DNA from: an uncultured Oscillospiraceae bacterium
GTDB lineage: Bacteria; Bacillota; Clostridia; Oscillospirales; Oscillospiraceae
DNA: 64,000 nt
Assembly (NCBI GenBank): GCA_947629775.1
Contig: CANRFA010000001.1
Coordinates: 1-64,000, forward strand
Reading direction: 5' to 3'
The translations under genes and the position numbers were made by a program. The notes beneath the pieces are model-generated. The model ran no database searches, was not told where the DNA came from, and saw nothing but the letters and a program-made list of their open reading frames with translations. Positions 5,407-62,272 of this stretch are shown piece by piece; the stretch's first letter is position 1, and each line of letters opens with the position of its first letter.

Positions 5407-5601
5407 ATGTTTATCTATGAGAAGAAGCTGCAGTTCCCGGTGAAGATCTCCAATCCGAATCCGAAACTTGCTTCATATATCATAACTCAGTACGGCGGTC
5501 CAGACGGCGAACTTGGCGCATCCATGCGCTATCTGACGCAGCGCTACGCCATGCCCTTCCCGGAAGCGCAGGGATTATTGACCGATGTCGGAACCGAAGA
5601 A
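5407..5601 (+). pseudogene. cotJC: cotJC (manganese-catalase-like coat protein), interrupted by the prophage
   Basis: The first 65 codons are typical CotJC: MFIYEKKLQFPVKI, QYGGPDGELGASMRYL with the first metal-ligand Glu, and GLLTDVGTEE. The family continues with LAHLEM and a total near 190 aa, but here the frame leaves the family after GTEE and runs into phage sequence. The open frame continues to 5940, but its tail is only antisense to the integrase. The missing two thirds would lie beyond the right prophage end, outside this window. Precise excision would rebuild the gene. Confidence 0.85.
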
Positions 5602-5685: not shown

Positions 5686-7278
5686 TCAGCCGGAACCGTC
5701 CGGAAGCCTGGGATAGAGAACGAGTTCAAAGTCGTCCGGGGAGACACCACGCCAACGGGCGCTGCGCTCCTTCGTATACACGACCTTCTCCAGTACCGCC
5801 CGAAGCATGTCGTTCTTCAGCTTGGGAGTCTCCAGGGTGTAGTAGACTTCAAGAAGATGCTCCACGGCTGGGATCACATCTTTTTTAGCCTCTTCTCTTT
5901 TGGATTCCAAGGCAATTTCCCCGTTGAGAGTCTCGATTGAGCCCTTCGCTGACTGGATACGCTCCGCTATGGTTCTGGAGCGCTGCAAAAAAGTCTCGGT
6001 GTCATAGACACCCTGCTCCAGCAGGTCGTGGACCGAAGAAAGCTGCCTGTCCAGCGCTACGAGGTCTTTCTCCAGCCTTTCCACAGACTTCCGTTTGATC
6101 TCAATCTGCGTGTTGGCTGAACTGGAGTCAGCTTCCCACTTAAGGCGGTAGGAGGACAGCCAGTCCTCAAGCCCACCGATTATCCTGCTTTCTACGAGAG
6201 CTAGATCGGATGAGACGTTGCTGCACATGGGGTCCGGACACATGAGAGTATCAGCCCTCGTGCGAGGGCCGTAGGGGCGTCTAGCCATTTTCCTTCCACA
6301 TTTGCCGCAAACGACAAGCCCGGCGAGAGGATTCTTAATAGTGGTATCCCCTTTAACTGGTCTGGGAGGTCTGTTTGCCATAAGCTCCTGAGCCATATCA
6401 AAGACCTGCTTGTCGATGATTGGAGGGTGAAACCCATCCACTATGAGCCATTCGCTCGGGTCTGCCTTCGGACGACTCACTACGAGTTTCCCATCCTCCA
6501 TTCTTTTGACGCTCTTCTTATAGTTCCAGCGCATCTTGCCAATGTAGACGGGATTGGTCAGCATACCTCTGATCGTGTGGGGACTCCAGGTGTTGCCCGA
6601 CTTCGTAGGAAACTTCATCTCGTTAAGCCGCCGACAGATAAGGCTTGGGCCGAGGCGCCTCCTCGATCCGTCTGGAAGGAGCTCTCCTTCTGTATAGAGG
6701 TTGAAGGCAAGCCTTACGATATCAGCCTCTGGTTCCAGAATTTCGAGCGTAAATCCCTTCCCACCTTCGATCTTAACCTTTCTGTATCCGTAGGGAGTTT
6801 TATTTCCAACATAATGACCTTCCTTGAAGGAAGCAATCCGCCCCCGCTGAAGTCTCCTGTTGATAACCTTATATTCCCTGCGAGACATGAAAAGGCCAAA
6901 CTCGAAGTATTCCTCATCGAACTCATTGTTCGGATCATAGGTCTTGAGAGGAGTGATAATCTTGGTATCAGAGAACTGAAATGTCTGAGCGACAATGCCC
7001 TGATCAATGGTGTCACCTCTTGCGAGGCGCTCCACTTCCATGACGAGGACGCCCTCCCAAGCGCCCTGTTCGACCTCGGAGAGAAGTCTCTGCATAACAG
7101 GCCTGGAGGCTATGGTATCCCCGGAGACAACTTCCCTGTATATCTCGGTGACGTTGAGATTGAGGCGCTTTGCAAGGTCAAGGAGAGCCCGCTCGTGGCG
7201 TGCCAGGACTTCCACTTCGGACGCAAGCGGGCCTTCGGAGTCGGACCTGGACTTTCTCAAGTATAAACAATACGGTAT
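5686..7278 (-). CDS. int: Large serine recombinase (phage integrase), apparent AUA start
   Basis: About 530 aa. The N-terminal catalytic domain begins PYCLYLRKSRSD, followed by GVLVMEVERLARGDTIDQGIV. The Recombinase domain covers roughly 160-290 (PYGYRKV, GMLTNPVYIGK). A zinc ribbon (CGKCGRKM, then CPDPMC) and a coiled coil (about 370-460) follow. It should integrate and excise the element at cotJC. The only standard start in frame, TTG at 7260, falls inside the first beta-strand. Reading from AUA at 7278 puts the catalytic Ser at residue 10, as usual, with a CGGAGG site 9 nt upstream; a stop closes the frame at 7303-7305. Confidence 0.9.
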   Translation of the reverse strand: MPYCLYLRKSRSDSEGPLASEVEVLARHERALLDLAKRLNLNVTEIYREVVSGDTIASRPVMQRLLSEVEQGAWEGVLVMEVERLARGDTIDQGIVAQTFQFSDTKIITPLKTYDPNNEFDEEYFEFGLFMSRREYKVINRRLQRGRIASFKEGHYVGNKTPYGYRKVKIEGGKGFTLEILEPEADIVRLAFNLYTEGELLPDGSRRRLGPSLICRRLNEMKFPTKSGNTWSPHTIRGMLTNPVYIGKMRWNYKKSVKRMEDGKLVVSRPKADPSEWLIVDGFHPPIIDKQVFDMAQELMANRPPRPVKGDTTIKNPLAGLVVCGKCGRKMARRPYGPRTRADTLMCPDPMCSNVSSDLALVESRIIGGLEDWLSSYRLKWEADSSSANTQIEIKRKSVERLEKDLVALDRQLSSVHDLLEQGVYDTETFLQRSRTIAERIQSAKGSIETLNGEIALESKREEAKKDVIPAVEHLLEVYYTLETPKLKNDMLRAVLEKVVYTKERSARWRGVSPDDFELVLYPRLPDGSG

Positions 7279-11346: not shown

Positions 11347-14300
11347 ATGAAGATACTGCATACAGCCGACTGGCATATCGGCAATTTCAACGGTCCCGTA
11401 GTAAACGGCGAGAACGCCCGGTTCCTGGACATCCGGAACTATCTCAGCAGAGTTGTCGGGATAGCGGTGGAGGAAAAGCCGGAGTTTATCATTGTAGCGG
11501 GAGACATTTTCCATCAGGCAAGGGTATGGAGCGACAGGGGACTCCGGGAAAGCCAGACGGCCATAGAGTGCGTCAGGCAGCTGGAGAAGGTTGCGCCCGT
11601 GATAATTGTCCGTGGGACGCCCAACCACGACAGCGAACAGCAGTTCAGAATGCTCCAGACGTCTTTTGAGGAGGACCGCAACGTTCACATTCTGACAGAA
11701 CCGGGCGTCCGTACCGTTACAGGCTACACGGGCCAGTCCATCGATGTAGCAGCGCTTCCAGGGTTCGACAGAGGGTACTTCAGGGCAATGAATCCTGGTC
11801 TCGACAGGGCCGAGGAGACAAAAGTGTTCAGCGAGGCTCTGAACGGAATCATTATGGGCATGAAAGCCCAATGCAGCGGAAGCAGGATGTCGGTTCTGGT
11901 AGGCCACTATACGGTAGCTGGGTCAAACATGGAGAGCGGACAGGTACAGCTGTTTTCACAATATGAACCGGTAATTGAACCCTACACGCTTGCAGCCGCC
12001 GGATTTGACCTCTCCTGTTTCGGACACATTCACCGCTGGCAGAAACTCGACGGTTGCGGAAGGGCGTACTACAGCGGAGCCATTGCAGCCTACAATTTCA
12101 ACGACGAAGGTCAGGAGAGAGGTCTGCTGATCCACGAAGATACAGGAACACGTTTCATTGAGATCGACTGCAGGAAGTTTAAAACAATCCGCCTGGCGGA
12201 TGAAGACATTCGTCTGTACAACAAAGAAGGTCTGATGCCGTGGGCCAGCGGAGTGGACAGCAGGATTGTAAGAGTGCTCTACAGCTGCACGGACGAACAT
12301 AATAAGGCATTAAACAAGACTGCGATGGAGAAAGAGCTGTATGCAAGGGGAACCTTCTGGGTGCAGGAGATAACTCCGGAGACTATCACGGTAGCAGCCA
12401 GCAGAAGCAGTCTGAGCACGGAGGACGGCCCGGAAGACAACCTGCGGAAGTATCTGCGGGAAAAGGAAATCGAGGAAGCTACAGCCGGAAGAATAGTCGA
12501 GAGGGCCAGGAAGTTCATAGCGGAGGCTGAACAGGCCACCATGAAAAGGCACGCAGGAGGTACGTTAGTTCCCGTAGAGATCGAGGTTAAGAACTACAGG
12601 AACTACAAAGAGGAAACGTTCAATTTCGACTGGGTGAAGTTCTGCACCATTAACGGCGAAAACGGAGCCGGCAAAAGCAGCCTTTTCATGGACGCCATGT
12701 GCGATGCGCTGTTTGAAGAGACACGGGAAGGAGATCTCTCCGGCTGGATAAGCAATTCTGAGGAAGCGAGAAGCGGGAGCATTAAGTTCACGTTCAGGCT
12801 CGGAGAAAGGCTCTACAGGGTCTCCAGGACAAGGATGAAAAGCGGACGTGCAACTCTTAACCTGGCCGAGATGGTTGAAGGCGTCTGGACTAACAGGAGT
12901 AAGGAGAAGCTCAGGGACACTCAGGCAGAAATACTGAATGCCATAGGCATGGACAGCCTTACCCTCAAGGCGACCGGTCTGATCATGCAGGACCAGTATG
13001 GTCTCTTTCTTACAGCGGACAAAGAGTCCCGTATGAGCATACTGGGGAAGATTCTTGGACTTGAGATCTACTCCCACATGGAGGAATCGACAGTCAACGC
13101 ACTTGCTGACTGCAACAGGGAAGTACGGTCCCTGAAAGAAAAAGCCTCGGAGTTGGACGGGTTGGACTCAAAAGAGAAGTCCGTACTGGCATACATCTCC
13201 AGATTGCAAGCCGACCTGCAGGAGCTTCAGGGCATGGATCAGGAGGTTCGGGCAAGGATCAGCGAGCTCTCCGCAGCTATGCTCGCAGCGGACGAGGTTT
13301 CAAGGCGAGTCGTATGGTTGAACTCGGAGATTGAGGCAGAAACGGGGAAAATCTCCATTGCCATCAGCAGCATAACAGCGCAGCAACTTATAGTCACAGA
13401 AGCAGAAAAGGCACTGAGTGAACGGGAGCGGATTGAAGCCGGCGTAGCGGAGTACGAGTCTATTGCAGTTAAGCTGTCTGCGCTGGAGAAGTCCGAGGAG
13501 GAATATTCGGACCTGATCTGCAGGATAAGCAGCGGGGAGAACCGTATAGCGCTGGCAACGTCCAAAGCAACTCAGCTGAAGCGCAAAGCGGAGGAAATTC
13601 AGCGGACAAGAATCGCCCCTGCAAACGCTCTGCTGCAAAACGAGGCTTCGCTGCGGGAGAAACACGGGGAGTATGAAGAACTGAGAGCCGAGCTGGAAAG
13701 ACTCGAATCTGCCCGTCCGGCATACCTGGAGGCCAAGCAGAAGGTCGAACTGACCAGGATGAGGCTGAAGGACCTCGAAAGGCGGGCTGTCCTGCTGGAG
13801 GACAATGGCTGCCCGTATGCAGAGGAGACGGAGTGCGTATTCCTGAAGGACGCCATTGAAGCCATGGAAATGATGCCAGGCGTGCGAGAGGAGCTTCTGA
13901 ACCTTATTGCGTTGACCCCCAAGGACTACACGGAAGACAGGGAAAGGGCTGTCAAAAGGCACCTGGAGGGCTTTCAGGAGTCGGAGGCAATGTACTCCAG
14001 ATTGGACATGGCGAAGACGGAAGTCGAACACGCCTCAGATATGATCAGGGAATTCAATGAGGAGATTGTAAGATACGAGGAGGAAACCCGTCAGGCACAA
14101 GCAGAAGTCCAGGAACTGACCGCCAGGAAGGACGTTTTAGGGCAGACCTCCAGGGAATACAAAAGTCTCAAGGGGAAGCTGGCGCAAGCGGAACGGTGGA
14201 AGAACAAAGAAAAGCAGCTTCCGGTCGCTCAGGAAAGGTACGATACAGCCAGCAGGCGTATCACTGAGCTGGAGGCTGAAGCGCAGGAGCGCAGAGGCAG

Positions 14301-15060
14301 AATCGTCGAGCTTGAAGCGGAAAAGTCTCAGGAAGAGGCAAAAGCGTCCGGACGTCAAGCCACCGAGCGGAAGCTGATGCAGGCGAAGGACGAAGAAAAG
14401 TGCATCTCTGACAGGATTATGGGAAAGAGCCTTGATCTGGGGGCTGCGCAGAAGGAGCTGCAGGAGGTCCGAGACAAAAAGAGTAAGCTGGCAGGGATAA
14501 GGCAGAAAGTGGACGAACTCAGCGTAGAGGCGTCTGATCTGGACATCCTCAAGAAAGCGTTCTCGCAGGACGGGATTCCTCACAACATTGTCAGAAGCAT
14601 CATACCGATCTTTGAGGCGACCGCAACAAACATACTTGGGCAGATGAGCAACGGCCATATGAGCGTCGAATTTGTCATGGAGAAGACGCTCAAAAGCAAC
14701 AGCAAGAAGGAAGTAACCGCTCTGGATATTGTGATCAACGACAGCCAGACCGGACGGCTTCCGTATATGAGTCGAAGCGGAGGAGAACGGGTAAAAGCAG
14801 CTCTGGCGGTAATACTGGCGCTTGCGGAGATCAAGAGCACCAAGGCAGGCGTACAGCTTGGCTTCCTTTTCATCGACGAGCCCCCTTTCCTGGACAGGCA
14901 GGGCGTCACTGCCTACTGCGATGCCCTGGAGACGATCCAGAGAAGGTACTCGGACCTGAAGGTTATGGCTATTACTCACGATCCGGAGATGAAAAGCAGG
15001 TTCCCTCAGAGCGTGGACGTCGTAAAGACGGAGAACGGAAGCAGGATCATTTACAACTGA
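11347..15060 (+). CDS. SbcD-SbcC (Mre11-Rad50) single-chain fusion
   Basis: 1237 aa. Residues 1-about 400 are a Mre11/SbcD metallophosphatase: HTADWHIG, VAGDIFH, RGTPNHD, VGHYT, CFGHIHRW. From about 413 the Rad50/SbcC ATPase begins: GENGAGKSS Walker A near 437, long coiled coils about 580-1040, a hook-like CPYAEETEC near 822 in place of the usual CxxC, ABC signature RSGGERV and Walker B GFLFIDEPP. In most bacteria and T4-like phages (gp47/gp46) these are two proteins. Expected to process DNA ends or hairpins. The frame is continuous, with 3 nt to the upstream gene. Confidence 0.9.
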   Translation: MKILHTADWHIGNFNGPVVNGENARFLDIRNYLSRVVGIAVEEKPEFIIVAGDIFHQARVWSDRGLRESQTAIECVRQLEKVAPVIIVRGTPNHDSEQQFRMLQTSFEEDRNVHILTEPGVRTVTGYTGQSIDVAALPGFDRGYFRAMNPGLDRAEETKVFSEALNGIIMGMKAQCSGSRMSVLVGHYTVAGSNMESGQVQLFSQYEPVIEPYTLAAAGFDLSCFGHIHRWQKLDGCGRAYYSGAIAAYNFNDEGQERGLLIHEDTGTRFIEIDCRKFKTIRLADEDIRLYNKEGLMPWASGVDSRIVRVLYSCTDEHNKALNKTAMEKELYARGTFWVQEITPETITVAASRSSLSTEDGPEDNLRKYLREKEIEEATAGRIVERARKFIAEAEQATMKRHAGGTLVPVEIEVKNYRNYKEETFNFDWVKFCTINGENGAGKSSLFMDAMCDALFEETREGDLSGWISNSEEARSGSIKFTFRLGERLYRVSRTRMKSGRATLNLAEMVEGVWTNRSKEKLRDTQAEILNAIGMDSLTLKATGLIMQDQYGLFLTADKESRMSILGKILGLEIYSHMEESTVNALADCNREVRSLKEKASELDGLDSKEKSVLAYISRLQADLQELQGMDQEVRARISELSAAMLAADEVSRRVVWLNSEIEAETGKISIAISSITAQQLIVTEAEKALSERERIEAGVAEYESIAVKLSALEKSEEEYSDLICRISSGENRIALATSKATQLKRKAEEIQRTRIAPANALLQNEASLREKHGEYEELRAELERLESARPAYLEAKQKVELTRMRLKDLERRAVLLEDNGCPYAEETECVFLKDAIEAMEMMPGVREELLNLIALTPKDYTEDRERAVKRHLEGFQESEAMYSRLDMAKTEVEHASDMIREFNEEIVRYEEETRQAQAEVQELTARKDVLGQTSREYKSLKGKLAQAERWKNKEKQLPVAQERYDTASRRITELEAEAQERRGRIVELEAEKSQEEAKASGRQATERKLMQAKDEEKCISDRIMGKSLDLGAAQKELQEVRDKKSKLAGIRQKVDELSVEASDLDILKKAFSQDGIPHNIVRSIIPIFEATATNILGQMSNGHMSVEFVMEKTLKSNSKKEVTALDIVINDSQTGRLPYMSRSGGERVKAALAVILALAEIKSTKAGVQLGFLFIDEPPFLDRQGVTAYCDALETIQRRYSDLKVMAITHDPEMKSRFPQSVDVVKTENGSRIIYN

Positions 15061-24447: not shown

Positions 24448-25167
24448 ATGCAAGTCGTAAAAATGCCACTGGATCGGCTGAAAGAGATGGACAAAAACGT
24501 CCGGGTTCACACCAAGATCCAGATCAAGGAGTACGTAAGGTCCCTTAAGATGTTCGGTCAGACAAAGCCTATTGTAATCGACGAGAACGGGAATATCATC
24601 ATCGGCAATGGCCTCTACCAGGCACTGCTGGAGATGGGAAAGACGGAAGCCGATTGCATTGTCATGAACGGCATCTCGGAGAAGCAGAAGAAAAAACTCA
24701 TGCTGGCGGACAACCGGGTATATGAGCTTGGCGCTACTGACGCCCAGATGTTCGACGAGATCATCAAGGACCTCGGGGGAGATATAGACGTACCCGGCTG
24801 GAGCGAGGACGTTATGCGGATGCTCAACCAGAGCGTCGAGGAGACCAACCGCATGATTGAAAACTACGGGGTGTTCGACAGCAAAGAAGTCGACCGCATG
24901 AACCGCAAGACGTATACGCCGCAGGACGAGGAGGACGTGGAAAGCCCTGAGGCGGCTCCTGACCATGGACAGCATACTTTCCAGACCCAAGGACAGCCTG
25001 CGCCTCAGCAGCCTCAGACAGCTTCTCATGGGCAAGCCGATGCGACGGAAGCCCCTTTTACCGCTCAGAGCACGTCAGAGACGCCTGACGGTCCCGCAGA
25101 AGCCAAGGGAGAGGAGAACCGGGATTATATCATTTGCCCGCACTGCGGAGGCAAGATATGGCTGTAA
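24448..25167 (+). CDS. ParB-like nuclease-domain protein with C-terminal zinc ribbon half-site
   Basis: 239 aa; ATG at 24448 with AAAGGAG upstream. ParB N-terminal fold: VVKMPLDRLKEMDKNVRVHT, QTKPIVIDENGNIIIGNGLYQAL, then QKKKLMLADNRV. A Pro/Gln-rich linker follows and the C-terminus ends CPHCGGKIW. Phage ParB-like proteins of this kind often accompany DNA-modification or packaging genes. It overlaps the PAPS reductase-like gene. Confidence 0.72.
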   Translation: MQVVKMPLDRLKEMDKNVRVHTKIQIKEYVRSLKMFGQTKPIVIDENGNIIIGNGLYQALLEMGKTEADCIVMNGISEKQKKKLMLADNRVYELGATDAQMFDEIIKDLGGDIDVPGWSEDVMRMLNQSVEETNRMIENYGVFDSKEVDRMNRKTYTPQDEEDVESPEAAPDHGQHTFQTQGQPAPQQPQTASHGQADATEAPFTAQSTSETPDGPAEAKGEENRDYIICPHCGGKIWL

Positions 25168-26297
25168 AGAGCATCAAGGGCTCCCTTACAGTTCTGGATG
25201 CAGCCAAGATCAGGATCAGGAACCTCTTCCACTCCGGATGTAAGGTTTACCTGAGCTTCTCAGCCGGTAAGGACTCCCTGTGCGTTTCCTCCCTCATTTA
25301 CGACCTTATACTGGCGGGGGAAATAGACAGGAAGCAGCTTACCGTCATATTCTTCGATGAAGAGGGTATCTACCGTTCCATGGTTCAAATGGCGACGGAA
25401 TGGCGGGATAAGTTTATCGGCATAGGCGTACCCTTCCTGTGGTATTGCCTGCCGTTCAAACAGCTGTCCTGTCTCGACAAGCTGTCCAGTACGGAAACGT
25501 GGATCACATGGGACCAGACGAAGAGAGACGCATGGATCAGAGAGCCTCCACCGTATGCGATCATGGAGCACCCGGAAGCAAAAGTCCCTGGAAAGTACAA
25601 CTATGTGCAGTTTTCTGACATCGTGTTCAGAGATGGCGTCCAGGTACTGGGACTGAGAGTCGCAGAGTCCATGACCAGAAGGCGGTCTCTCAGTGCTATG
25701 AAGTATGGGAGACTGAATGAACGTTTCTATCCTATCTACGACTGGGGCAACCACGACGTCTGGCTGTACATCAAGGAGAAAAACCTCTACTTCCCCGAGA
25801 TATACATCCGTCTCTATGAAGCGGGAGTGAAAAAGCACCTGCTGCGACTGAGCTGCTTTTTTGGAGCCGACAGTATTATCGGTCTTCAGTGGGTAGCGCA
25901 AACGGATCCGGAACTGTGGGAGAGAATTGAGAAGCGTGAACCCAATGCGTATCTCGCCCTTCTTTACTGGGACAGCGAGATGTTTGCAAGGAAGACGAGG
26001 AAAAGAACGCAGCTCGAATCCGGCTCCGGCCAGAAGAACTACTACGAGCTCTGCAAAGAGCTGTTCCTCAATCCGGACGCTTTCAACATACCACCCGATA
26101 CCAAAAAGCTGCTTCCGAGATGGAGGTGGCTTTTCATCAGGGCCGACGGGATGATGCTCGAAGAGCACTACCAGAAGATGTTCGAGTCTATCATCAAGGG
26201 CGATCCAAAGATGAGAAACTTCAGAACTCTCTACTCAGCTATATTCAGCACTTACACCAAGAGTGCAGTACAGGAGGCTGGAAGATGCACGAAATGA
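25158..26297 (+). CDS. Phage PAPS reductase-like (PP-loop) protein
   Basis: 379 aa. The PP-loop SFSAGKDSLCV at about residue 34-44 is the nucleotide-binding motif of the PAPS reductase/ATP-pyrophosphatase superfamily. YPIYDWGNHDVWLYI and a Cys in RLSCFFGADSI match the phage branch (DUF3440-like). In phages this family is linked to DNA or tRNA modification; the target here is unknown. Flanked by two ParB-like genes, with overlaps on both sides, so one functional unit is likely. Confidence 0.75.
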   Translation: MAVKSIKGSLTVLDAAKIRIRNLFHSGCKVYLSFSAGKDSLCVSSLIYDLILAGEIDRKQLTVIFFDEEGIYRSMVQMATEWRDKFIGIGVPFLWYCLPFKQLSCLDKLSSTETWITWDQTKRDAWIREPPPYAIMEHPEAKVPGKYNYVQFSDIVFRDGVQVLGLRVAESMTRRRSLSAMKYGRLNERFYPIYDWGNHDVWLYIKEKNLYFPEIYIRLYEAGVKKHLLRLSCFFGADSIIGLQWVAQTDPELWERIEKREPNAYLALLYWDSEMFARKTRKRTQLESGSGQKNYYELCKELFLNPDAFNIPPDTKKLLPRWRWLFIRADGMMLEEHYQKMFESIIKGDPKMRNFRTLYSAIFSTYTKSAVQEAGRCTK

Positions 26298-50903: not shown

Positions 50904-52010
50904 ATGCCTAACTTCGATGATCTCAAGCTCGCCGTGCAAGCAGTTTCCGGCGGGAAAAATACCGTCCTCTTCGACGACACCGGCATGCCGTCTATCATGG
51001 TAATCATTCCGCAGTTCACCTCCAAGCAGGTGCTCGGCGATACCGTGCAGAACGGAAGCGCTCCCACCGACAACGTTCACCCTGCCTTCCAGGTCGGCAA
51101 CAAGACCCTGCAGAAGGTGGCGATCTCCAAGTACCAAAACATCGTCGTGAATAGCCGGGCCTACTCCCTGCCCATGCAGGATCCCAGGACCAGCATCACT
51201 TTCGATGCTGCGCAGGACGCCTGCAAGGCCAAGGGCGATTTCTGGGGCGTCACTCCCTTCTCCCTCTGGAGCGCTCTCGCTCTCTGGTGCAAGAAGAATG
51301 GCACCATGCCCAACGGCAATAACCAGTGGGGCCACGACGTCACTGCTACCTGGGAGCACGGCGTTCAGACTGCTACCGAAGGTGGCGAGAGCCACAAGGG
51401 TGAGACTTCCCGCACCGCAACCGGCAGCGGCCCTGCTACCTGGTTCCACGACCACACCAGCTTCGGGATCGCAGATCTCAATGGGAACGTCTGGGAGTGG
51501 TGCGCGGGTATGCGCCTGCGCAAGGGTAAAATCCAGATCATCCCCTATGCCGACTGCATGATGCCCTCCTGTGACTTCAGCCTCAACAGCTCCGCCTGGC
51601 GGGAGATCACGGAGGACGGCTCCCTGGTAGCTGTCGGCACTGCCGACACTCTCTGCTACGACTACTCCACCGACAAGTTCGTGATCGCCAAGAAGGTTAC
51701 GACCACTAAGGGCGAGGAAGGGAACGGCACCGGCGCTGGACACGTCTTTGCCAACATCGGTAATGGCGAGATCGAGACCATTCCCCAGATCCTGTTTGAC
51801 CTCGCTCTGTATCCCGCCGATGCAACCGCCGAAAACTACAAGGGCGATTACTTCTACTGCAACAACTTCGCCGACGAGCGGTTCCCGCTCCGTGGCGGCC
51901 ATTGGGGCCACGGTGCGGGTGCGGGCGTGTTCGACGTCAACCTGCACAACGCCCGGTCCGACTCGGCTGGCCACATCGGGTTCCGCTCCGCTTTCTATGG
52001 GGAACTGTAA
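50904..52010 (+). CDS. DGR variable protein (FGE/C-type-lectin-like fold), predicted receptor-binding tail protein
   Basis: 368 aa. Residues about 70-220 resemble formylglycine-generating-enzyme/CLec domains: VAISKYQN, AQDACKAKGDFWG and DLNGNVWEWCAG. The C-terminus RFPLRGGHWGHGAGAGVF...GFRSAFYGEL is a classic DGR variable CLec end. The last 39 residues are encoded by VR, whose changes fall almost wholly in Asn codons of the template. Located after baseplate and fibre genes, so it probably sits at the tail tip like Bordetella Mtd and binds the host surface. Confidence 0.93.
   Translation: MPNFDDLKLAVQAVSGGKNTVLFDDTGMPSIMVIIPQFTSKQVLGDTVQNGSAPTDNVHPAFQVGNKTLQKVAISKYQNIVVNSRAYSLPMQDPRTSITFDAAQDACKAKGDFWGVTPFSLWSALALWCKKNGTMPNGNNQWGHDVTATWEHGVQTATEGGESHKGETSRTATGSGPATWFHDHTSFGIADLNGNVWEWCAGMRLRKGKIQIIPYADCMMPSCDFSLNSSAWREITEDGSLVAVGTADTLCYDYSTDKFVIAKKVTTTKGEEGNGTGAGHVFANIGNGEIETIPQILFDLALYPADATAENYKGDYFYCNNFADERFPLRGGHWGHGAGAGVFDVNLHNARSDSAGHIGFRSAFYGEL
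51878..51992 (+). repeat. DGR variable repeat (VR)
   Basis: 115 bp aligned without gaps to TR (52626-52740). There are 14 differences, and all 14 are A in TR (A to G or C). The 18-bp 3' end (ATCGGGTTCCGCTCCGCT) is identical and G/C-rich, as expected of the mutagenic-homing initiation end. Matching stops just before the last codons of the gene. Confidence 0.97.
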
Positions 52011-52033
52011 ACTGAAGGCTGGATAACTGATCG

Positions 52034-52051
52034 GGCGGGCGGTAGCCCGCC
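52034..52051. other. DGR target-site hairpin/cruciform downstream of VR
   Basis: GGCGGGC (52034-52040), loop GGTA, GCCCGCC (52045-52051): perfect 7-bp stem, plus one possible G-T pair. It lies 24 nt after the target stop codon. GC-rich hairpins with 4-nt GRNA-type loops just after VR are known DGR target-recognition elements; GGTA fits. Confidence 0.8.
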
Positions 52052-52080
52052 TATGCCAACTCGAAATGGAGGGGAAACGT

Positions 52081-52599
52081 ATGCCGATCTACCCGAACGC
52101 GACTTCCAACAGGAGGCCGTACTACCCGAAACAGCAGCAGACGCAGACAGGTCAGCAACCGCAGCAGCCGTCCGGCCATACAACCACGGAGACGCCGGAG
52201 ACGCAGCAGAACGCTTCCCCTCCTTCCGGGCAAAGCAGACCGGATACCCGGCCATTCATGATCCAGGAGAAGATACTGGACATGATGAAGTACGGGAAAC
52301 CGGCGGTTGCCAACTTTCCAGGGCGTGAAAGGGTACTAGCAGACGAAATCAGGCGGAGCATGCAGACCATGCTCCGCCTCGCCATAATCGTCAAGAAGAA
52401 GTACTATAAGAAGACCACGCTCCAGGAGCTGGACGTCGAGCTTGAGATACTTCAGAAGCTGATCCAGATAGCACAGGACAAAAGCTACTATGGGCAGAAA
52501 TTCTCGCCGCCTCTGTCAGCTCAGAAGTACAAGCACTGGTCAGGACTCCTGACCGAAATCGGCAAGATGATAGGCGGCTACATGAAGTCATTCAAGTAG
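52081..52599 (+). CDS. avd: DGR accessory variability determinant (Avd-like four-helix bundle)
   Basis: 172 aa; ATG at 52081 has GGAGGGG 6 nt upstream, the ATG at 52066 overlaps that site. The first 60 residues are a disordered Gln/Pro/Thr-rich extension. Residues about 65-172 match Avd: ILDMMKYGKPAVANFPGRER, long basic helices, and the ending HWSGLLTEIGKMIGGYMKS, close to the family's EIG+M(I/L)GGW end. Avd forms a pentamer that binds the RT and template RNA. The extension is unusual (known Avd is about 125 aa). Confidence 0.9.
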   Translation: MPIYPNATSNRRPYYPKQQQTQTGQQPQQPSGHTTTETPETQQNASPPSGQSRPDTRPFMIQEKILDMMKYGKPAVANFPGRERVLADEIRRSMQTMLRLAIIVKKKYYKKTTLQELDVELEILQKLIQIAQDKSYYGQKFSPPLSAQKYKHWSGLLTEIGKMIGGYMKSFK

Positions 52600-52625
52600 C
52601 TGCTTCTCATAGGGAGCAGGCCATT

Positions 52626-52740
52626 GCGGTTCCCGATCCGTGGCGGCAATTGGAACAACGGTGCGAATGCGGGCGTGTTCAACGTCAACCTGAACAACGC
52701 CCGGTCCAACTCGAATAGCAACATCGGGTTCCGCTCCGCT
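52626..52740 (+). repeat. DGR template repeat (TR)
   Basis: 115 bp between avd and the RT gene, not itself in a coding frame that is used. It holds 25 adenines: 11 AAY (Asn) codons in the target's frame, two ATC and one AGC. It pairs with VR at 51878-51992. Fourteen of the 25 adenines are replaced in VR; no other base differs. Confidence 0.97.
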
Positions 52741-52930
52741 CTGCTGCCGTGCCAGGGGAGATGTCCATCCCACGGGAGGACATACGGAGCACGGCTTCAA
52801 AGGGGTCTGTTTCCTCGCCCGAGAGAAGCATCTCGGGGGAAAGATTGCAATGCTGTGAAAACACGTCAGAGAACGTTCAGCGATGGACGGGCGTGAGGCA
52901 GAAATGTCTCGCACAGCCAGGGGAGGTAAA
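52741..52930 (+). ncRNA. TR-RT spacer of the DGR template RNA
   Basis: The 190 nt between TR and the RT start have no gene but do have structure, notably CCCGAGA (52818-52824), GAAGCA loop, TCTCGGG (52831-52837). In known DGRs, RNA downstream of TR is needed for cDNA priming, so this is read as part of the template RNA. RNA ends are not determined. Confidence 0.6.
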
Positions 52931-54115
52931 ATGGACAGGAAACCTCTTTCTATGATTACGGAAGGAGCCTACAACCGTATAACGGAGTTTGAATGGCTCT
53001 ATAATGCTCACCTGGAGGCCAGAAAGCAGAAACGCTACCGGACGGACGTTCTGCTTTTCTCGGACAATCTGGAAGCCAACCTGTTCCAGCTCAGAGACGA
53101 ACTGAGGTCCGGCGAATACCGGATTGGCCCATACAGGAAGTTCTTTGTATTTGAACCGACTCAGCGCCTGATCATGGCGCTGCAATATAGAGACAGGGTG
53201 GTCCAATGGGCGGTCTACAGTCTTCTGTACCCGTTCTTCGACCGGATGATGATAGAGGACAGCTTTGCCTGCAGGAGGGGAAAGGGAACGCACAGGGCGG
53301 CGGACCGCCTCCAATACTGGCTGCGGCAGGTGCATAGGAAGGCCGGGAAATGGTACTACCTGAAGACGGACGTCAGCAAGTACTTCTACCGGATTGACCA
53401 CAGAATCCTGCTTGAGATATTCGAGCGGCGGGTAAAGGATAGAGCCCTTCTCTCCCTTCTGCGTCTCATCATCAACAGCGAGGACACGAGGTTCGGATTG
53501 CCTGCTGGCTTTGCCCCTTGGGCCTGCCCGGAGGACATGTGGCTGTACGACGTCGGCGTTCCGATAGGAAACCTGACCAGCCAGCTCTTTGCCAACGTCT
53601 ATTTGAACGAACTTGACCAGTTCATAAAGCACGGGCTGAAGGTCCACCACTATATCCGCTACATGGACGATGGAATCCTCCTCTCGGATAGCAAGTCGCA
53701 GCTTCACGACTGGGAGGGAGCCATAGAGGAATTCCTCGTGGCACACCTTCATCTGGACCTGAACAATAAGACGGTTGTCCGCCCGGTGGACGAGGGAGTT
53801 CCATTCGTCGGATATCGACTCTCCGGCACTCACAGGATTCTCCGGAAGCAGACCTCCAGGCGGATCATACGCAACACGAAAAGCCTCTGCAGGAGCCTGG
53901 CAGAAGGGGCTATCACAAGGGAACAGTTCGACCGGGTAATCGCCTCTTATAACGGCATTCTCCAGTACTGCGAAAGCGGAGGCCTCCGTTCCCACCTGAA
54001 CGACATATACTGCGACCTGGTGCTCCAGCTACCTCACCCGAGGTTGCAGGAGCGCCTTTTATTCCATGAACAGGATGGAGGGATACGATGTACATTGACG
54101 CCAGCACTATCATAA
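52931..54115 (+). CDS. DGR reverse transcriptase
   Basis: 394 aa; ATG at 52931 follows GGGGAGGT. Motifs in order: a YRTDVLLFSDNL start region, YRKFFVFEPTQRLIMALQYRDRVVQ, EDSFACRRGKGTH, KTDVSKYFYRID (first catalytic Asp), GVPIGNLTSQLFANVYLNELD with SQ at about 217-218, characteristic of DGR RTs (group II introns have SP), YMDD (about 244-247) and GVPFVGYRL. It copies TR RNA with errors at adenines, together with Avd. The 3' end overlaps the next gene by 28 nt. Confidence 0.95.
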   Translation: MDRKPLSMITEGAYNRITEFEWLYNAHLEARKQKRYRTDVLLFSDNLEANLFQLRDELRSGEYRIGPYRKFFVFEPTQRLIMALQYRDRVVQWAVYSLLYPFFDRMMIEDSFACRRGKGTHRAADRLQYWLRQVHRKAGKWYYLKTDVSKYFYRIDHRILLEIFERRVKDRALLSLLRLIINSEDTRFGLPAGFAPWACPEDMWLYDVGVPIGNLTSQLFANVYLNELDQFIKHGLKVHHYIRYMDDGILLSDSKSQLHDWEGAIEEFLVAHLHLDLNNKTVVRPVDEGVPFVGYRLSGTHRILRKQTSRRIIRNTKSLCRSLAEGAITREQFDRVIASYNGILQYCESGGLRSHLNDIYCDLVLQLPHPRLQERLLFHEQDGGIRCTLTPALS

Positions 54116-58533: not shown

Positions 58534-58590
58534 GCAATCTCTCTATCGGTTAGACACCTCTAATCGTTCGGACCGACAGGCCCAGCCGAA

Positions 58591-58606
58591 ACGGCCTTCG
58601 GGCCGT
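58591..58606. other. UUCG-loop hairpin after the accessory gene
   Basis: ACGGCC-TTCG-GGCCGT, a very stable tetraloop hairpin 57 nt after the stop codon, without a T-run. May stabilise the transcript or help termination. Confidence 0.4.
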
Positions 58607-58770
58607 CTGCCGAGGGTTGACCGCCCGGCACTGATGAGGCAGGTCAGAAAGAGACGTGCTCGCAAGTCCCCCTGAGAACCTTATGTCCCTTCCTGTAGGG
58701 GTAGACATCAGGTAGGGAAGCATCCAATCGCAGGTAGCGCCTCAGGGACGTGCAGCGCCGCTGAACGCCT

Positions 58771-61379: not shown

Positions 61380-61583
61380 ATGGAATTGTCGTTCCTGGAA
61401 AGCAGGGACCTCCTGTACCTGTGGGAGGCTCTACTGACCGCCGAACACTATCACAGGAAGAGCGTGGAAGCGCTGAGCCAGGCAGGCTCCGAAGAGATTA
61501 TCAGCTATCTCGTCGAGTACCACAGAGAACGTGCCATCGAGTTCGAGCGGATCAGAACGGCTCTCGAACACTTTACAGGCTGA
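61380..61583 (+). CDS. Small helical accessory protein
   Basis: 67 aa, GAGGAGG before the ATG. All-helical and acidic (SRDLLYLWEALLTAEHYH; EEIISYLVEYHRERAIEFER). Size and helicity recall small phage regulators or inhibitors, but nothing firmer can be said. Confidence 0.58.
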   Translation: MELSFLESRDLLYLWEALLTAEHYHRKSVEALSQAGSEEIISYLVEYHRERAIEFERIRTALEHFTG

Positions 61584-61603
61584 ACACGAAAGGAGTTTTC
61601 ACA

Positions 61604-62272
61604 GTGACAGACAGGAATAACGTTGAAATCAGGACCGGAGACATTGTCTACGTCGAAGGGACCTACTTCCAGGACGATACCGGGGTCTTCCTGGTGACCA
61701 GATCCCCTGGAGACCCCTGCTGGGTCGGAGACAGCTACTCGTTGAACAGGCTCGTGGGAAAGGGAAAGATCAGCACCGCCGCAAACAGCGTCTCCTCGTG
61801 GCCTGTCCGGTCCTACGTAACTAACCACGGTGTCCGGGAGGAAGCGGACCGGTGGAACCGGGACAATGCGACGATAAGGGTCATGAAGCCCCTGGAGAAC
61901 ATGTCGCACGTTGAGAAGTACTTCCTGGATGAGGCAAGGTACGCCAGCAGGCAAGCTAAGCGAATGGAAGCCAGGGGTCTGTCCGACTGCCCCCAGCACG
62001 ACAACCTGAAGCGCTCCGAGGAGTTCTTCAGGCAGGTAGCGGACCGGGTGTCCGGAAGGACTACGGAGGAAGGCAGAAGGAACACCGGCAAGGAGTACCG
62101 GTACGGTATGAGACTTCGGGGCTTCAGTATGGGGACTGCCCCTACGCAGAACCTGAAAGGGGTTCGGGACACGGATAAGGCCATCACCGGCTACTGGTCA
62201 ATCCTTATCTACAGCGTTCCACTGACCCGGGAGCAGGTGGAACAGTACGAGCTGACCCCTTTGAAAGCCTGA
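61604..62272 (+). CDS. Hypothetical accessory protein
   Basis: 222 aa from GTG with AAAGGAG upstream; the longer open frame upstream overlaps the previous gene. A small beta-barrel-like start (RNNVEIRTGDIVYVEGTYFQDDTG) is followed by a helical, basic middle. No family recognised. Last gene of the transcript that begins at module copy 2. Confidence 0.6.
   Translation: MTDRNNVEIRTGDIVYVEGTYFQDDTGVFLVTRSPGDPCWVGDSYSLNRLVGKGKISTAANSVSSWPVRSYVTNHGVREEADRWNRDNATIRVMKPLENMSHVEKYFLDEARYASRQAKRMEARGLSDCPQHDNLKRSEEFFRQVADRVSGRTTEEGRRNTGKEYRYGMRLRGFSMGTAPTQNLKGVRDTDKAITGYWSILIYSVPLTREQVEQYELTPLKA

Follow-up and report, generated by a model that had tools for sequence, protein, structure and literature searches.

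Does the tail module of a prophage in an uncultured Oscillospiraceae bacterium carry a complete diversity-generating retroelement (DGR), and has that element been at work? The stretch analysed here, called the window, covers positions 1 to 64,000 of contig CANRFA010000001.1 (C1; 180,063 bases), part of a 3.07-Mb draft genome of 204 contigs that is 95% complete. An original prediction, drawn from the letters of the window, had proposed a complete DGR with the target gene, variable repeat (VR), hairpin, avd, template repeat (TR) and reverse transcriptase (RT) in order, and every one of these parts is located here (Table 1). The element is almost certainly a canonical phage DGR.

The repeat pair and its cassette

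TR and VR are direct repeats of 115 bp each, 88% identical on direct reading, with no gaps and a spacing of 748. All 14 mismatches fall at TR adenines, of which there are 25 in 115 bases (P = 1.3e-11 that 14 random mismatches would all do so), and TR equals VR at all 90 non-A positions. From TR to VR, eight changes are A to G, six are A to C and none is A to T. The mismatches alter 11 codons, every one non-synonymously, and 9 of the 11 template Asn codons are changed in VR, confirming the predicted repeat length and counts to the base. The downstream copy is the template, because all 14 differences sit at its adenines. A chance repeat was rejected on the P value of this pattern.

VR ends 18 bases before the end of the target stop codon, and homology to TaqVP identifies the target, by sequence, as a C-type-lectin variable protein whose gene carries VR at its 3' end. 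In a phmmer search, the target has a single strong solved relative, 5VF4 (E 1.7e-55, residues 5-364). This is TaqVP, which PMC6328139 describes as the protein diversified by a DGR in a Thermus aquaticus prophage; it adopts a C-type lectin fold, its VR spans residues 341-374, and the window VR aligns at TaqVP's VR end. PF03781 reaches the target only below threshold (20.5 bits against a cut-off of 23.3), and weaker matches include two PHROGs annotated as tail protein.

The cassette lies entirely on the forward strand in the order target, VR, GRNA-loop hairpin, avd, TR, spacer and RT, which is the order in BPP-1. The RT is of the predicted DGR type, with an unbroken frame carrying the SQ and YMDD motifs (IGNLTSQ, YMDD) and 32.9% identity to the BPP-1 RT (E 1e-49). 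Searching solved structures with a profile of the RT alignment gave a strong match to 8ub7, which is not counted as independent because that alignment includes the BPP-1 RT itself. GGAGG-like ribosome-binding-site sequences suggest that avd starts at 52081, not 52066, and make 52931, not 52883, the probable RT start. The Avd N-terminus (window 52066-52257) forms a ~60-residue P/Q/T-rich stretch ahead of the conserved domain, longer than in most listed relatives.

The 142-base spacer between TR and RT covaries as a structured RNA. The supporting alignment holds 23 of 39 sequences picked by eye (some of the 16 omitted were near-duplicates and some looked hard to align); in it, both partners vary in 16 of the 18 predicted pairs, and 94.8% of cells are paired, against 38-45% when partners are slid. 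This outcome is favoured by the structure having been derived from the very alignment used to test it. The covariation score is matched by none of 500 shuffles, the number of further pair types by 35 of 500. The single-sequence fold is only mildly stable (z -1.56), with 13 of 200 shuffles equally good.

Hairpins with a 5'-GRNA loop have been described for phage DGRs in parts of PMC3240598. Across 106 distinct loci including the window, 65 have a GRNA loop, 11 another loop and 30 none, under hairpin criteria of our own and in a locus list pre-filtered for A-rich mismatches, which also supplied the near-twin comparison below; shuffled sequence yielded one GRNA hairpin in 2620 trials.

Elsewhere in the same genome, the TR region and spacer matched only themselves, their VR and one 19-base stretch (E 0.4). 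One Avd gene was found, and no second VR or DGR was found in this draft. A scan of a genome-contig collection with the RT confirmed no relative, and a plasmid collection searched at its 'near' setting gave no match to a near copy.

Under the BPP-1 model, a structured TR RNA would serve as template: RT and Avd would reverse-transcribe its TR portion into complementary DNA (cDNA), misreading template adenines, and this cDNA would take the place of VR in the target gene's 3' end. Replacement would be guided by the 20 3'-end bases common to TR and VR together with the downstream GRNA-loop hairpin. The resulting tail-module protein would display a C-type-lectin region, in which the altered residues would probably shift phage binding. 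We infer retrohoming by this copy.

Adenine-specific change in relatives and the readings weighed

Of 87 loci anchored on the RT, 6 were excluded for insufficient upstream DNA, 1 for a repeat of only 17 bases and 5 as duplicates; in the remaining 75 pairs, 962 of 1032 mismatches lie at TR adenines. Setting aside L063, whose 243-base repeat does not resemble a TR/VR pair (3 of 31 mismatches at A), leaves 74 distinct pairs with 959 of 1001 mismatches at TR adenines, where A makes up 1839 of 8445 TR bases. Mismatches are A-only in 46 of the 74 and at least 80% A in 71; the 74 pairs do not represent 74 independent events, because many loci are related.

Near-twin contigs share an identical TR and are 99.8-100% identical over the 500 bases preceding VR; the share of their VR differences that falls on TR adenines is 16/16 for L059/L060, 15/15 for L078/L091, 14/14 for L076/L078, 12/12 for L122/L124 and 13/15 for L114/L115. 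The pair L120/L121, with 99.2% flank identity, has 19 of 21 VR differences on TR adenines. Pairs that differ in TR carry more non-A change, with 10 of 14 differences on adenines for L016/L096 (3 TR changes) and 20 of 26 for L128/L136 (7). Such contigs reveal nearly A-only VR change without any experiment, and non-A change at similar rates was not seen when VR was compared across relatives. Together with the A-only divergence in the window, the nearly A-only differences between near-identical relatives support the earlier claim of activity in this lineage, and the DGR has probably been active recently.

Several observations weigh against current activity. Identical VRs occur on some different contigs (for example L018, L019 and L020). 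A to T is missing among the 14 VR changes, compared with 29% in relatives (283 of 962 A changes; naive chance of 0/14, 0.008). The hairpin lies 41 bases past VR, outside the 4-34 bp quoted in part of PMC3240598 for a figure of five earlier examples, though close to the median of 38 bases for the 76 hairpins of the survey. This phage is, moreover, known from a single genome snapshot, from which current activity is not demonstrable, and the DGR may once have been active and now be silent, its 14 differences a record of past homing and its cassette or prophage defunct; PMC11792537 describes prophages with DGRs whose VR showed no variation among the reads of that study's samples. The element shows no sign of decay, however: every DGR frame is open, TR and VR still agree at each of their 90 non-A positions, and we regard a silent element as unlikely, though the most serious of the alternatives. 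As a separate observation, two true TR/VR pairs of relatives (L028 and L086) also have no A to T.

Nothing found argues against DGR identity itself. The RVT_1 domain is also common to group-II-intron and retron RTs, and the repeats might in principle be an ordinary duplicated gene end beside such an RT, with the A pattern arising by chance; the P value given above, the presence of Avd, the same A pattern in relatives and the fact that the nearest annotated relatives are phages with the same layout make this account negligible. A different question is what a working DGR diversifies. The target's annotation rests on homology, and the DGR targets of some Faecalibacterium phages look like capsid decoration proteins (parts of PMC11792537), so that here the target could have no part in host range and be displayed on the particle or lysogen in another capacity. 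Against this stand its position directly after the baseplate genes and ahead of holin and endolysin, its matches to the two tail-protein PHROGs, and the annotation of its FP_Lagaffe homologue as Mtd-like; we consider it improbable, somewhat more so than a silent element. The predicted tail module is borne out by sheath, tape measure, baseplate wedge and Mu Gp48-like genes upstream of the target. A place for the target at the tail tip is plausible, and homology and gene position suggest that it likely controls host range.

Compared with the BPP-1 DGR (mtd, avd, TR, brt), the window shares part order, strand, A-specific TR/VR, a GRNA-loop hairpin and an RT 33% identical; unlike BPP-1, its phage has a contractile-tail module (sheath), its target is TaqVP-like and not Mtd-like by sequence, and its hairpin starts 41 bases after VR instead of at the VR end. 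Thermus aquaticus belongs to a different phylum from the window's host. Its prophage DGR (TaqVP, PDB 5VF4) resembles the window's in a target homologous over residues 5-364, a VR at the same end and, from sections of PMC6328139, cassette order, the window protein having been compared by sequence only. FP_Lagaffe (a Faecalibacterium phage) and Dulem virus 37 are closer, with targets 39.5-39.6% and RTs 46.4-51.6% identical and the same gene order, but the Lagaffe prophage has two VRs according to part of PMC11792537, whereas one was found in the window's genome. BalMu-1 shares the target-avd-RT order, as judged by its TR/VR pair and homology. The DGR is of an ordinary kind, and Faecalibacterium prophages with DGRs have been published before (PMC11792537); it contributes a further well-formed example, accompanied by many relatives.

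Target homologues 42-44% identical occur at three short loci (L175, L176 and L177, in genomes G052, G029 and G051) in genomes without a close DGR RT (E 1e-40). No A-rich TR/VR pair is listed for these loci, and their C-termini differ; they are possibly fixed, DGR-free versions.

Table 1. Positions of the cassette parts and of the features bounding the prophage (window coordinates unless C1 is given)
Feature	Position	Strand	Basis
Target (variable) protein gene, 368 amino acids	50904..52010	+	phrog_2889 E 1.2e-123; PDB 5VF4; C-type-lectin DGR protein by homology
Variable repeat (VR)	51878..51992	+	3' end of target gene; 115-bp ungapped copy of TR
Hairpin after VR	52034..52051	+	7-bp all-GC stem, GGTA loop, fits 5'-GRNA
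avd	52081..52599 (longest open reading frame (ORF) 52066..52599)	+	PF22296 E 3.5e-24, whole profile; phrog_3206 Avd E 4.5e-28
Template repeat (TR)	52626..52740	+	Repeat comparison; covered by distant blastn match to several phages
TR-RNA 3' spacer, structured RNA	52741..52882	+	Covariation, 23 sequences
DGR reverse transcriptase	52883..54115 (longest ORF, 410 amino acids)	+	PF00078 E 3.6e-18; phrog_1423 E 4.8e-128
Split Mn-catalase/CotJC-like host gene, 5' piece	5407..5601	+	PF05067 profile 1-66
Split Mn-catalase/CotJC-like host gene, 3' piece	C1:66417-66788, outside window		PF05067 profile 63-198
Large serine recombinase of prophage, 524-amino-acid ORF	5686..7260	-	PF00239 at C1:6814-7266, E 7.8e-13

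The carrier prophage and the split CotJC-like gene

The prophage assignment also stands: on the 180-kb contig, phage genes lie between two pieces of one host gene, with a serine recombinase adjoining. The prophage measures ~60.8 kb, as it lies between the two pieces, and the recombinase sits just inside its left end (PF00239, 49.7 bits against a cut-off of 23.3). By family and neighbouring genes, the split gene is classed as CotJC-like; the gene upstream of it presumably resembles CotJB. To the right of the prophage follow an AAA/Lon-type protein, taken as RadA, and then AddB, a scan with which gave 17 relatives at 65-70% identity, including Pseudoflavonifractor, Flavonifractor, Lawsonibacter and uncultured Oscillospiraceae records, which places the host among bacteria of this type. 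The same genome holds a second, intact homologue of the split gene (C2:155710-156315). Exact repeats of at least 13 bases were sought between the two flanks of the prophage, and none made a convincing att core.

We surveyed 64 genomes of the genus, including this one (G000), for PF05067-family matches at E 0.001, and 55 have one. By our count, a family gene is broken into two parts lying ~5 to 61 kb from each other on a single contig in 11 of the 64. The breaks lie near profile position 65 in G000, G033 and G038, near position 150 in G003, G006, G007, G010, G017, G020 and G037, and near position 50-55 in G059. A nearly full-length copy is also present elsewhere in G000, G003, G006 and G010, so that at least two genes of the family are concerned. 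The split genes of G007 and G017 are not contig-end artefacts, since they sit on 3.67-Mb and 3.50-Mb contigs; in other genomes the pieces fall on different contigs, which may reflect assembly breaks. All 8 wholly fetched elements (loci among L216-L227) encode a relative of the window recombinase (22-23% identity, E <=1.7e-9), and none was found in 4 part-stretches from the two largest other elements.

Elements that intervene in sporulation genes are already known (parts of PMC5595907, PMC4191935 and PMC10747680), and a CotJC-like gene has been placed next to a Clostridioides difficile prophage (part of PMC11222575). Among the matches listed in the open literature, no paper describes elements inside cotJC, which is weak evidence of absence. 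As with sigK skin, spsM SP-beta and gerE gin, a prophage here splits a spore-coat-type gene with a serine recombinase beside the junction; unlike them, the window involves another gene, and its genome has a second intact homologue. We tentatively propose that the carrier is a sporulation-gene intervening element and that the CotJC-like gene is a genus hotspot, entered at several separate sites by elements that carry serine recombinases and restored by excision in the sporulating mother cell; we hold this to be possible but doubtful. If true, sporulation would proceed undisturbed while the phage continued to vary its tail protein. This setting may be more important than the DGR: a spore-coat-type gene repeatedly entered by recombinase-bearing elements in one Oscillospiraceae-like genus would make developmental excision testable in that genus.

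Further features of the prophage lie outside the cassette. A type II hammerhead ribozyme (RF02276, 53.4 bits against a cut-off of 37) follows the lysis genes at 58584-58648 (+). A 1237-residue ORF at 11347-15057 (+), with an SbcD-like N-terminus and an SbcC-like remainder, is apparently a fused nuclease-ATPase in the phage. The cargo includes a phosphoadenosine phosphosulfate reductase-like gene at 25134-26294 (+; E 3.8e-77) and, at 61421-62269 (+), a protein with a DarA C-terminal domain (E 1.2e-12).

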